Shown: positions 2,324 to 41,988 of the stretch, piece after piece | How the letters are laid out: each line of letters starts with the position of its first letter | How positions within the stretch are numbered: the stretch's first letter is position 1 | NCBI RefSeq assembly: GCF_012027725.1 | Contig: NZ_SJOU01000009.1 | Coordinates: 1-64,000 of the forward strand | Reading direction: 5' to 3' | Origin: Olsenella sp. SW781 | Lineage (GTDB): Bacteria > Actinomycetota > Coriobacteriia > Coriobacteriales > Atopobiaceae | Length of the DNA stretch: 64,000 bases | The notes under the pieces: model-generated | What the model was told of the DNA's origin: nothing | The model's input: the letters and a program-made list of their open reading frames with translations, nothing else | Databases searched by the model: none | Translations under genes and position numbers: made by a program

Positions 2324-3610
2324 ATGAACAGCCAGAAGATCGACATCCTGCTTCTTGGGTCCGGCGGCCGCGAGCACGCACTTCTCGCCAAGCTCGCCGA
2401 GTCGCCGCGTGCGGGCAAGCTCTACGTTGCCCCCGGCAACGGCGGCATGAACGCCATGGCAACCCCCGTCGAGGACCTGGACATCAACTCTCCCGTCGAC
2501 GTTGCCCAGTGGGCCAGCCAGCGAGGAATCGGCCTCGTGGTCATCGGTCCCGAGGCGCCGCTCGTGGCGGGCGTTGCCGACGCCGTGCGCTCCGCCGGCA
2601 TCCCGTGTTTTGGCCCCAACGGCGCCGCGGCCCAGATGGAGGGCTCCAAGAAGTTTGCCAAGCAGGTCATGGCCCGCGCCGGGGTCCCCACCGCTGCCTA
2701 TCGCAGCTTCACCGACGAGGAGACGGCCGCCGCGTACGTGCGTCAGGTCGGGGGCCCCGTGGTGGTGAAGGCGGACGGCCTCGCCGCAGGCAAGGGCGTG
2801 ATCGTGGCCAAGACCACCGAGGAGGCGCTCGAGGGCGTGCACGAGTGCTTCTCGGGCGCGTTCGGCGACGCCGGAGCCACCGTCGTTGTTGAGGAGACCC
2901 TCGAGGGGCCGGAGTGCTCGCTGCTGGCGCTCACGGACGGTACGACCGTGGTGCCGCTCGCCACCTCGCAGGACCACAAGCGCGCCCTCGACGGGGACAA
3001 GGGCCCCAACACCGGCGGCATGGGCGTCTACTCGCCCGTTCCCGAGCACCTCGTCTCCGCCGACGAGCTGGCCACGATGGTCGAGATAGAGAAGAAGGTC
3101 GTGGCCGAGCTCGCACGCGAGGGCATCACCTACTCCGGCTGCCTCTACGGCGGCTTCATGCTCACTGAGGACGGCCCCAAGGTCCTGGAGTTCAATGCAC
3201 GCTTCGGCGACCCCGAGACGCAGGTCGTGCTGCCGCGTATGAAGGCTGACCTCGTGAGCGTCTTTTTGGCCTGCGACAGCGGCGACCTGACCGAGGACAT
3301 GGTCTCCTGGGACGACGACTGGGCCGTCTCGGTGGTCCTCACCTCTGCCGGCTATCCCGGCAGCTATGAGAAGGGCAAGGTCATCACCGGCATCGAGAAG
3401 GCCGAGGAGATGGAGGGCGTCACCGTCTACCACGCCGGCACCGCCGAGAAAGACGGGCAGATCGTCACCTCCGGCGGCCGCGTCCTCGACGTCACGGCCG
3501 TGGCCCCCACCTTTGAGGAGGCCCGCGCCAAGGCCTATGCCGCCTGCGACCTCATCGACTTCGAGGGCAAGACCTTCCGCACCGACATCGGACTGCGCGC
3601 CATCAAGTAA
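2324..3610 (+). CDS. purD: Phosphoribosylamine-glycine ligase (GAR synthetase)
   Basis: PurD ligates glycine to phosphoribosylamine with ATP, the second step of de novo purine synthesis. The 428-residue product is full length. It opens with the family's LLLGSGGREHAL, carries the ATP-grasp segment (VVKADGLAAGKGV at about 146-158), GGMGVYSP, and FNARFGDPETQVVLPR near the metal site. The start ATG follows AGGAGG at 2311. It is followed immediately by a strong intrinsic terminator, so it ends this purine transcription unit. Confidence 0.98.
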   Translation: MNSQKIDILLLGSGGREHALLAKLAESPRAGKLYVAPGNGGMNAMATPVEDLDINSPVDVAQWASQRGIGLVVIGPEAPLVAGVADAVRSAGIPCFGPNGAAAQMEGSKKFAKQVMARAGVPTAAYRSFTDEETAAAYVRQVGGPVVVKADGLAAGKGVIVAKTTEEALEGVHECFSGAFGDAGATVVVEETLEGPECSLLALTDGTTVVPLATSQDHKRALDGDKGPNTGGMGVYSPVPEHLVSADELATMVEIEKKVVAELAREGITYSGCLYGGFMLTEDGPKVLEFNARFGDPETQVVLPRMKADLVSVFLACDSGDLTEDMVSWDDDWAVSVVLTSAGYPGSYEKGKVITGIEKAEEMEGVTVYHAGTAEKDGQIVTSGGRVLDVTAVAPTFEEARAKAYAACDLIDFEGKTFRTDIGLRAIK

Positions 3611-33862: not shown

Positions 33863-33940
33863 AGCCTCTTCCGCCGAGTTTCACTACAATGGGTGAATCA
33901 CAGTCGCCCGCGTCCCGCGCGGACCGAGGGAGGGAGCTCG

Positions 33941-34930
33941 ATGGCCCAGCTCTTTGACATCCAGAAGGTGACGGTCGGCCCGAGGAACCTCGAGGCCGTG
34001 GTTGCCCTTGCCCCGAGCGCTCCCGTCATGACGAGCGACGACATCGAGGGAACCGCCCACGTGTTCGACCTCCTGCCCGGTCTCATGGACCACATCTGCC
34101 TCGGGGACTCCTCCGAGCGCTTCACCGAGGTCGCCGGCAACACCGAGCTCGCGCACCTGCTCGAGCACGTGACCGTCGAGCTCCTCGCGCAGACGGACGT
34201 CGCCGGGGACATCTCGAGCGGTCGCACCACGCAGCTGGGCGACCGCCTCTACCAGATCACGCTCGCCTGCTCGGACGACGTGCTCGTGGCCGGCGCGCTC
34301 TCGAGTGCGGTCTGGATTCTCCAGTGGGCCTTCTCCGGCGCGGGCGACCCCAAGCCGGACGTGGCCGCTACCGTCGAGGGCCTGGTCGCCCTCGTCAAGA
34401 GCCTGGACGAGAAGGACGAGGGCTCTTCGGAGCCCGATCTCCCGGCCGGGAATGACGTCGAGCCCGAGCCTGAACCCGAGGCGGAGCCGGCTGTCGAGGA
34501 GGCCCCGGCCCCCGCGCCCGTCGAGCCCGCCCAGGAGCCCGAGCCGGCGTGGTCCGAGGAGGAGCCCGCTGAGCCCGCACCCGAGCCTGAGCCTGAGTCC
34601 GAGGAGCCGGGCGAGACCTGCGTCATGCATCCCGTTCCCGAGCCCGCGCCTGTCGACGACGCCCCCGAGCCGGAACCCGAGCCTCAGCTCGTGATTGAGG
34701 AGGAGCCCGAGCCCGTCGAGGACGAGGAGCCTCTGCCCGATGCTGCAGAGCCGGATGAGGAGCCCGTCCCGTCCCCGGAGCCGGAGGGGCCGGCCGAGGA
34801 GCCCGAGGCAGAACCGGAGCCCGAGCCGGAACCGGAACCGGAGCCTGAGCCTGAGCCTGAGCCCGAGCCCGCCAAGCCCGCGGACCCCTGGGACCTCATC
34901 GACGCCCCGCGTCCGCACCTCGTTCGCTAG
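33941..34930 (+). CDS. CphA-N-like domain protein with acidic Pro-Glu tail
   Basis: A 329-residue protein in two parts. Residues 1-150 resemble the N-terminal domain of cyanophycin synthetases: ELAHLLEHVTVELLAQ is close to that domain's HxxEHVALELQ, and a ferredoxin-like pattern follows. No ATP-grasp or Mur ligase domains are present. From about residue 165 to 310 the chain is almost only Glu, Pro and Ala, including an uninterrupted EP-repeat, and must be disordered and highly negative. It ends with WDLIDAPRPHLVR. The ATG follows GGGAGGGAG. YtxH and PRC-barrel genes follow closely, suggesting one unit. Function unknown. Confidence 0.72.
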   Translation: MAQLFDIQKVTVGPRNLEAVVALAPSAPVMTSDDIEGTAHVFDLLPGLMDHICLGDSSERFTEVAGNTELAHLLEHVTVELLAQTDVAGDISSGRTTQLGDRLYQITLACSDDVLVAGALSSAVWILQWAFSGAGDPKPDVAATVEGLVALVKSLDEKDEGSSEPDLPAGNDVEPEPEPEAEPAVEEAPAPAPVEPAQEPEPAWSEEEPAEPAPEPEPESEEPGETCVMHPVPEPAPVDDAPEPEPEPQLVIEEEPEPVEDEEPLPDAAEPDEEPVPSPEPEGPAEEPEAEPEPEPEPEPEPEPEPEPEPAKPADPWDLIDAPRPHLVR

Positions 34931-40480: not shown

Positions 40481-40484
40481 CCGC

Positions 40485-40695
40485 GCCGGAACCCTCTCTT
40501 CCGGGCTCGCCCCAAGGTGGAACCCGGAAGAGGAGGCTCCGGCCTCCTGCCCGCGCAAGCGGGTGCGCATATCCGCAAGGCCAACAATCGTCGCCCAGGG
40601 CGCGTTGCTGAAAGGCTTACGGGGAATGAATACGTCGCTTACGGCGGGACGGGGGTCCCGGTGGCGAAGCATGCAGCTTCGCTGTCGACCCTGGG
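40485..40695 (+). promoter_or_regulatory. Structured leader RNA ahead of loaP
   Basis: Three hairpin units follow one another. First, an interrupted long stem-loop: 40485-40490 with 40538-40543, and CTCTTCCGGG 40496-40505 with 40523-40532. Second, CCCGC-GCAA-GCGGG at 40550-40563, a GNRA tetraloop. Third, CCCAGGG (40594-40600) pairs with CCCTGGG (40689-40695) enclosing GGGAC/GTCCC (40646/40655) and GCGAAGC/GCTTCGC (40664/40676). LoaP proteins are known to recognise leader RNA hairpins, so this is a candidate antitermination site or riboregulator. Confidence 0.6.
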
Positions 40696-40742
40696 TTTCC
40701 CGCTTCTGCCTGTGCCAGGCGACTCCCGGAGGGGAGGCGCAG

Positions 40743-41258
40743 ATGGCCCTTTACGTTATACAGGTTGTTGGCGGCAAGGAGCAGCACGTCTGCGACCTCG
40801 TCAACAAGCTGTTGAGTGAGAGCATCAAAGAGTGCTTTATCCCGCGGCGCGAGGTCATGCGCCGCGTTGAGGGTAGCTGGATTAGCATCCGGGAGACGCT
40901 CTTTCCCGGATACCTTTTCGTGGAGACAGACAATATCCAACACGTGATGGAGCGCCTGGCACGCATCCCGGCGTTCACGCGCCTGCTGGGCGTAAGCGAC
41001 GAGAAAGTCATTCCCCTGAGCCAAGACGAGGTCGCCTGGCTCACCGCGCTCATGAAGCCGCTCGACAAGGTGGTTGAGATGAGCGTGGGCGTCATAGAGG
41101 GCGACCAAGTCATCGTAACCGACGGGCCCCTCAAGGGTCACGAGGCACTCATCAGCAAGATCGACCGCCACAAGCGACTGGCCTTCCTGGACATGCGCAT
41201 GTTCGGCAGGACCAAGACGATCAAGGTGGGGTTGGAGATTGTCAGAAAGCACGCTTGA
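40743..41258 (+). CDS. loaP: NusG-paralogue antiterminator LoaP
   Basis: A 171-residue specialised NusG paralogue. The NGN domain (YVIQVVGGKEQHVCDLV... FIPRREVMRR...LFPGYLFVET) occupies about 1-100, and the KOW domain is EGDQVIVTDGPLKGHEALI (about 118-136). LoaP acts on RNA polymerase to read through terminators in long polysaccharide or antibiotic operons. I chose ATG 40743 with GGAGGGGAGG just before; longer upstream frames run through the structured leader. It overlaps the next gene by 20 bases. Position at the head of a 16-kb biosynthetic run fits antitermination of that operon. Confidence 0.9.
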   Translation: MALYVIQVVGGKEQHVCDLVNKLLSESIKECFIPRREVMRRVEGSWISIRETLFPGYLFVETDNIQHVMERLARIPAFTRLLGVSDEKVIPLSQDEVAWLTALMKPLDKVVEMSVGVIEGDQVIVTDGPLKGHEALISKIDRHKRLAFLDMRMFGRTKTIKVGLEIVRKHA

Positions 41259-41988
41259 GGCAGCCGTCTCAGCAGGCTCCACAACGGGCGAGAAGAACGC
41301 GGGCGCGCGGCTCGTCGAGGCGGAGGACCGCCGCTTCACCCCTTCGGAGCTCGAGCGCATCTCCTGCGGCATCGACCGCAGGCCGGCCTACCGCGTCGCC
41401 AAGCGCGCCTTCGACATCGCCTTCAGCGCGTGCGTGCTGGTGGTCCTTCTGCCCGTGCTCGCGCTCATCGCGCTCGCCGTCTGGCTCGACGACCCGCACG
41501 GCTCCCCGCTCTTCTTCCAGGAGCGCGTGGGCAGGCGCGGGCGTGCCTTCAGGATGGTGAAGTTCCGCTCTATGTACGTGGATGCGGAGGACCGCCTCGA
41601 AGAGCTCATGTGCGACAACGAGAAGGACGGTCCGGTCTTCAAGATTAAGGACGACCCGCGTATCACGCGCGTGGGCAAGTTCATTCGCAAGACCTCGATT
41701 GACGAGCTCCCGCAGTTCTGGAACGTGCTCGCGGGCGACATGTCGGTCGTGGGGCCGCGACCCGCGCTCCCGCGCGAGGTCCGCCAGTACTCGCTCCGGG
41801 ACCAGCTGAGGCTCGCCGTGCGCCCAGGCATCACCTGCTACTGGCAGACGAGGCGCAACCGCGACTCCATCACCTTCGACGAGTGGGTCGACCTCGACCT
41901 GCTCTACATCCTGCAATGCGGCCTCTGGACCGACGTCAAGCTGATTGTCCAGACGGTGGGCTGCGTGCTCACGTTCCAGGGGGAGTAA
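41239..41988 (+). CDS. Priming undecaprenyl-phosphate sugar phosphotransferase
   Basis: A 249-residue polyprenyl-phosphate hexose-1-phosphate transferase that loads the first sugar onto the lipid carrier. A poorly conserved N-terminal 50 residues (with GEKN) leads to a membrane helix (ACVLVVLLPVLALIALAVWL), then the conserved FQERVGRRGR, KFRSMYVDAED, DPRITRVGKFIRKTS and DELPQFWNVLAGDMSVVGPRP. It is the short form lacking the four extra helices of WbaP. The TTG start at 41239 lies inside loaP with GGTGGGG before it; a later start is possible since the N-terminus is variable. Confidence 0.92.
   Translation: MSESTLEAAVSAGSTTGEKNAGARLVEAEDRRFTPSELERISCGIDRRPAYRVAKRAFDIAFSACVLVVLLPVLALIALAVWLDDPHGSPLFFQERVGRRGRAFRMVKFRSMYVDAEDRLEELMCDNEKDGPVFKIKDDPRITRVGKFIRKTSIDELPQFWNVLAGDMSVVGPRPALPREVRQYSLRDQLRLAVRPGITCYWQTRRNRDSITFDEWVDLDLLYILQCGLWTDVKLIVQTVGCVLTFQGE

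Follow-up and report, generated by a model that had tools for sequence, protein, structure and literature searches.

A conserved structured leader RNA before loaP at capsule loci of Coriobacteriales, a candidate LoaP-responsive antitermination element

To our knowledge, LoaP is a widespread, little-studied paralogue of NusG, and detailed study of its targets has been confined to two Bacillus polyketide operons. The dfn/mln target is a UNCG hairpin in the polyketide leaders, which LoaP binds with sub-micromolar affinity and which is followed by a pause and a NusA-dependent terminator (PMC12691694). In E. coli, RfaH reads ops as a small hairpin of the non-template strand, with a C3:G8 pair around the loop G4-A7 (PMC5995543); GCGAAGC is known as a very stable DNA mini-hairpin (PMC4686876). 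In the UpxY leaders, premature termination is relieved by UpxY (PMC7819879).

The stretch of DNA analyzed here (the window, 64,000 nucleotides from Olsenella sp. SW781) carries at 40743..41258, on the forward strand, a NusG paralogue of the NusG-family antiterminators that is identified as loaP (NF033641, 180.6 bits against a cut-off of 125). Genes for an LCP protein, Wzz, a tyrosine autokinase and CpsB lie 5' of loaP, and the sugar transferase, WecG/TagA and the capsule cluster lie 3' of it. The gap between the cpsB stop codon (40480) and the loaP start (40743) spans 40481-40742, and a Shine-Dalgarno-like GGAGGGGAGG stands ahead of the loaP start. Elsewhere in the window, the C-terminal part of the open reading frame at 33893-34930 is a long Glu-Pro rich repeat. 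The features of the gap and the first capsule gene behind loaP are listed in Table 1.

Table 1. Features of the loaP leader and the following capsule gene (window coordinates)
Feature	Position	Strand	Basis and remarks
Core RNA P1-P2-P3, flanks CAUA...AAUGAAUA; candidate LoaP-responsive antitermination element	40567..40636	+	R1/R2 covariance models (66-77 bits), 101 homologous leaders, covariation
P1, 5' strand; pairs with 40614-40623	40572..40582	+	MFE fold; two-sided changes in 8/8 modelled P1 pairs
P1, 3' strand, then conserved AAUGAAUA (40625-40632)	40614..40623	+	Covariation; in some relatives also terminator 5' arm
P2-P3 hairpin, CAA-U-CG-U-CGCC-CAG-GGCG-CG-UUG	40585..40607	+	LoaP-hairpin-like core AAUCG-N-CG...CG-CG-UU, common to Bacillota
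P0, long hairpin 3' of the cpsB stop codon; lineage-specific	40485..40543 (approx.)	+	MFE fold; compensatory pairs in 7 close relatives only
Alternative small hairpin, GGAGGC-UCCG-GCCUCC, overlapping the P0 3' arm	40532..40547	+	RNAalifold, paired in 7/7 relatives
GNRA hairpin, CCCGC-GCAA-GCGGG	40550..40563 (approx.)	+	Stem compensated partly, in some close relatives, not all
Box TGGCGAAGCATG, GC-GAA-GC mini-hairpin, ops-like; probable pause/loading element	40662..40673	+	Box enrichment in leaders
Undecaprenyl-phosphate sugar transferase, first capsule gene after loaP	41239..41988	+	PF02397; 67% identity to L114 ORF

The core comprises the stems P1, P2 and P3, with ACAUA on its 5' side and RRUGAAUA on its 3' side, and CAU (40568-40570) additionally pairs with AUG (40626-40628). 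The apical loop of P3 is CCAGG (or CAG) in the window and UACAC, CACGA, AUCAG and others in relatives. Covariation in homologous loaP leaders, the absence of which the first-pass annotation had named as evidence against a structured leader, was found: in the 101-row alignment, 89.5% of the cells pair and 16 of the 17 pairs have two-sided changes, figures that are inflated by the relatedness of the sequences and by the fitting of the alignment to the model. With the same inflation, two-sided cells number 276 against a shuffled mean of 96, none of 500 shuffles reaches any of the measures, and slid controls give 0.08-0.14, compared with 0.485 for the core alignment.

A search of 31 genomes of the genus for LoaP homologues gave 28 NusG-like matches, of which 21 have the ACAUA-P1-P2-P3-RRUGAAUA motif upstream; the seven without it form a distant paralogue clade. 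The leaders with the motif are of two sequence types, A and B. Covariance model R1, for which only eight type-A leaders were used, also found every type-B leader that precedes a paralogous loaP gene of the genus, each with the correct strand and location, and gave one likely chance match (E 2.6). This recovery is safer evidence than the covariation figures. Just before or inside some of the distant NusG-paralogue reading frames of the genus (L030, L031 and L035), from which the RNA is absent, stands a run of about ten G, and these paralogues are possibly phase-variable.

A second model, R2, made from 27 leaders and run over 395 genomes of the order Coriobacteriales, gave 123 matches in 85 genomes and 33 genera, 104 of which lie 26-571 nt 5' of a listed LoaP on the same strand. 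Counting all LoaP-like reading frames, 98 of the 101 leaders fetched have one downstream on the same strand; of the remaining three, one is a contig end, one a chance match and one L114, described below. LoaP genes without a listed match mostly had weaker versions of the core, and seven of nine such genes, rescanned with the filters off, matched at E <= 0.025. Among 296 sampled genomes of Actinomycetota from outside Coriobacteriales there was one borderline match, with no LoaP nearby, which was judged chance, and no second core site above chance was found in the genome of the window. Two tandem copies of the core RNA (351-417 and 833-898) precede a single loaP in L162 (G324), and in L099 (G209) and L108 (G320) an intact core RNA accompanies a LoaP reading frame that is low-scoring or split over two frames, the loaP gene having possibly decayed.

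The first-pass annotation had described three ordered structures in the gap. The whole of 40485-40695 does fold stably (MFE -107.4 kcal/mol, z = -3.29, with none of 200 shuffles equally good), and the first hairpin and the GNRA hairpin are present, whereas the third unit had been drawn wrongly. P0 and the hairpin with the GCAA tetraloop are retained by RNAalifold with some compensatory changes among seven close relatives and are seen in that lineage only. The small hairpin at 40532-40547 has the loops UCCG, UCCU, UCUU, UACC, UCAG and UCUG across relatives, UNCG occurring in the window lineage only, and a strict UNCG loop was rejected there as not kept in relatives. The multi-branch region said to be closed by CCCAGGG and CCCTGGG is missing from the consensus fold: P3 has CCCAGGG (40594-40600) as its tip, CCCTGGG is restricted to the window and a relative 98% identical to it, and exact 7-bp inverted repeats of this sort occur in 97% of shuffled leaders. 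We rejected this closure as unconserved and expected by chance. CTTACGG does occur twice, at 40616 and 40638, as had been pointed out, the first copy being part of P1; the second is not kept in relatives, and the repeat is not supported. Nor are the boundaries originally drawn around the element supported, the conserved core being 40567-40636. Taken alone, this core is of ordinary stability in the window (z = 0.03), and its support is evolutionary rather than thermodynamic.

About 10 coriobacterial leaders have an intrinsic terminator whose 5' arm is formed by the P1 3' strand; P1 folding and termination are therefore mutually exclusive in those leaders. P1 competes with a terminator in several Lachnospiraceae leaders as well, in which the terminator 3' arm comes directly after the box introduced below. 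In the window leader, neither a terminator-like site nor a sigma-70 promoter was found, complementarity of the P1 3' strand to downstream sequence is unremarkable (z = 0.8), and no terminator sharing that strand was found; termination here is possibly distal or Rho-dependent.

About 25 nt 3' of the core, at window positions 40663-40670, is a box, GGCGAAGC, that the first-pass annotation had overlooked. Its consensus, GGCGNAGC, is much more conserved than its flanks and occurs within 120 nt downstream of the core in 71 of 100 leaders, against 3.5 in shuffles and 2 in the 120 nt upstream; it mostly lies 22-31 nt after the core. The N position is A in 60 of 74 boxes, and some boxes have a swapped but compensated stem (GGCC-GAA-GGC, GGCC-GUA-GGC and ACGC-GAA-GCGU). 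The usual spacing is GG-N8-TG, with TG at offset 10 in 40 of 72 leaders (4 of 72 for the next commonest offset), and the TG of the window box is one base nearer. Close relatives have a longer hairpin with the box as its 5' arm. From leaders with a P1-sharing terminator or a downstream complement (L154, L156, L162 and L167) the box tends to be absent, and there may be two leader designs.

Outside Coriobacteriales, a genome scan with a three-row LoaP alignment provided 73 loci, among which R2 gave significant matches at the coriobacterial loci only and none at the Bacillota loci. What the Bacillota have in common with the window is the P2-P3 hairpin core alone, found by pattern: of 43 loaP genes of Bacillota, 11 have AATCG-N-CG...CGCGTT upstream (0 in shuffles) and 17 have the box there (0.74 in shuffles, 6 in a downstream control region). 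The outer stems of the Bacillota leaders covary. In Lachnospiraceae, loaP leaders with the same hairpin core (AAUCG-N-CG...CG-CG-UU) and the box are followed by loaP and by genes whose functions, read from sequence, are those of a sugar transferase and of glycosyltransferases. In Paenibacillus, and there only, the hairpin core takes a UNCG version: with U[UUCG/UCCG/UGCG]G loops, it stands on the divergent strand before the operon next to loaP, which we read as a phosphopantetheinyl-transferase and polyketide operon.

One coriobacterial copy is separate from loaP. In L114 (G319, 3501-3567), the core RNA and a box-like GGCGAAGTCATG precede a capsule sugar transferase that is 67% identical to the one after loaP in the window, and no LoaP is found within 3.5 kb downstream. 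L114 is a candidate trans-regulated LoaP operon, and a copy before a transferase without loaP points to a LoaP target site rather than to an element tied to loaP alone.

We consider it likely that the leader is a LoaP-responsive transcription-antitermination element that controls loaP and the capsule genes behind it. Comparison among leaders shows that the fold and the box are conserved and keep their order, that they are associated with LoaP and that terminators compete in some relatives; LoaP binding, pausing at the box, antitermination and positive feedback are the steps that we infer. In the proposed sequence of events, the nascent RNA would fold into P1-P2-P3 and LoaP would grip the P2-P3 hairpin; some 25 nt later, RNA polymerase would slow at the GC-GNA-GC box, long enough for LoaP, still on the RNA, to dock on the polymerase, which, thus modified, would pass terminators both of the leader and of the long operon. 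In relatives with a shared P1 3' strand, P1 held in its folded state would directly block the terminator. With loaP as the first gene behind the leader, the outcome would be a positive feedback loop. Both the LoaP site and the autoregulatory leader that had been suggested for this gap gain support from the comparison, given that 98 of 101 homologues stand directly before a LoaP-like reading frame and that Bacillota leaders share the hairpin core and the box. Against this explanation stand the window leader without a detected terminator or promoter, the hairpin without UNCG, and the LoaP residue E40, unconserved in this order (see below).

By itself, the linkage to loaP is also what a LoaP-independent element controlling loaP would show. 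Such an element might be a metabolite-sensing riboswitch, for a sugar nucleotide for example, with LoaP not binding the RNA: the core is compact, its unpaired flanks (ACAUA and UGAAUA) are conserved, a subset has mutually exclusive terminators, and the RNA is found almost only before loaP. However, the hairpin core is found again in the leaders of Bacillota capsule operons and Paenibacillus polyketide operons, pathways that have LoaP in common and no obvious shared metabolite, and with no Rfam riboswitch match, no ligand candidate and no positive support this reading seems unlikely. We regard as very unlikely a processive antitermination RNA of the put/EAR kind that acts directly on polymerase, loaP being merely the first gene of the operon. 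It would explain the position inside long polysaccharide operons, as for EAR, and the strong sequence constraint on the hairpin, but the adjacency of 98 of 101 copies to a LoaP-like reading frame is far tighter than polysaccharide operons would demand, and the Rfam scan of the window gave no match. A leader in cis directly before loaP, with the Shine-Dalgarno-like GGAGGGGAGG before the start, could instead serve negative autoregulation or translational control, LoaP or another protein binding it and limiting loaP expression or mRNA life; the copy that precedes a sugar transferase rather than loaP, and the shared terminators of relatives that point to transcription, make this quite improbable.

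A further alternative is compatible with the LoaP-responsive reading and concerns the box only, which might act solely as an RNA pause or terminator hairpin and not as an ops-like element read in DNA. The box being the 5' arm of a longer hairpin in close relatives and standing just before the terminator 3' arm in Lachnospiraceae favor the RNA-only role, whereas the short GGCGNAGC is far more conserved than its flanks and GG-N8-TG is preferred (40 of 72), and we put the chances of the RNA-only role somewhat short of even. More tentatively, and with doubt, we suggest for Gram-positive LoaP a two-step loading, in which the structured nascent RNA would capture LoaP and an ops-like GC-GNA-GC mini-hairpin of single-stranded non-template DNA in the paused bubble would hand it to the polymerase. 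If so, the recruitment of LoaP by RNA and of RfaH by DNA, now thought to be different, would share an element, at a site conserved between Bacillota and Coriobacteriales. The leader makes the reading of an ops-like DNA signal by LoaP a directly testable question; it also offers a signature by which LoaP sites can be recognized from sequence in gut Coriobacteriales and Lachnospiraceae, whose loaP genes stand at the head of operons for capsules, which phages and the host see. The conservation predicts which bases matter and suggests a positive feedback switch for capsule.

Among known systems, the dfn/mln hairpin of Bacillus velezensis (PMC12691694) resembles the core in the LoaP-family protein and in the small bulged leader hairpin, which here, too, lies in the leader of a loaP-linked operon (98 of 101 homologues); downstream there is a pause in dfn/mln and, in relatives though not in the window leader, an intrinsic terminator. 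It is the Paenibacillus polyketide hairpin that matches dfn/mln by published description, its sequence identity with dfn following by inference. The window hairpin was not filed as UNCG type because a UNCG loop was looked for and is not there, and, unlike dfn/mln, the hairpin is enclosed in a conserved P1 with ACAUA/UGAAUA flanks, precedes loaP itself at capsule loci and is followed by the conserved GGCGNAGC box. The reported LoaP contact residue E40 (PMC12691694) is unconserved in coriobacterial LoaPs, and R41 is R or K (our alignment and numbering).

Leaders of the Bacteroides UpxY system (PMC7819879) likewise lie 5' of a capsule operon whose first gene encodes a NusG paralogue, UpxY being another NusG branch. 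EAR of Bacillus exopolysaccharide operons and the HK022 put RNA are alike as nascent RNAs that promote read-through of long operons, whereas the present RNA is tied to loaP rather than to operon content and has no Rfam match: at the gathering threshold no family matched in the window, with only chance-level matches around the leader, and a known Rfam family was rejected as its identity. The main text of two candidate-RNA surveys (PMC11109978 and PMC8632094) mentions neither loaP nor NusG.

With RfaH/ops (PMC5995543), the locus shares a NusG paralogue, capsule-type operons and the GC-G(N)NA-GC mini-hairpin sequence (ops, GGCGGTAGCGTG), and the likeness of the box to ops and to the stable DNA mini-hairpin is one we draw by analogy. 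Spacing that resembles the GG-N8-YG pause spacing of ops, with TG at offset 10, is seen in 40 of 72 leaders, the window TG coming one base early. The ops core, GGCGGTAG, is absent, the window having GGCGAAGC and the consensus being GGCGNAGC; the loop is usually one base shorter (GNA, not GNNA), with no conserved T, and a structured RNA, not required by RfaH, lies ahead of the box. Both LoaP and a leader hairpin bound by it have been described before. Apparently new, no mention having been found in the accessible papers, are the larger conserved Coriobacteriales RNA, its occurrence at capsule loci ahead of loaP and the conserved ops-like box that follows it.
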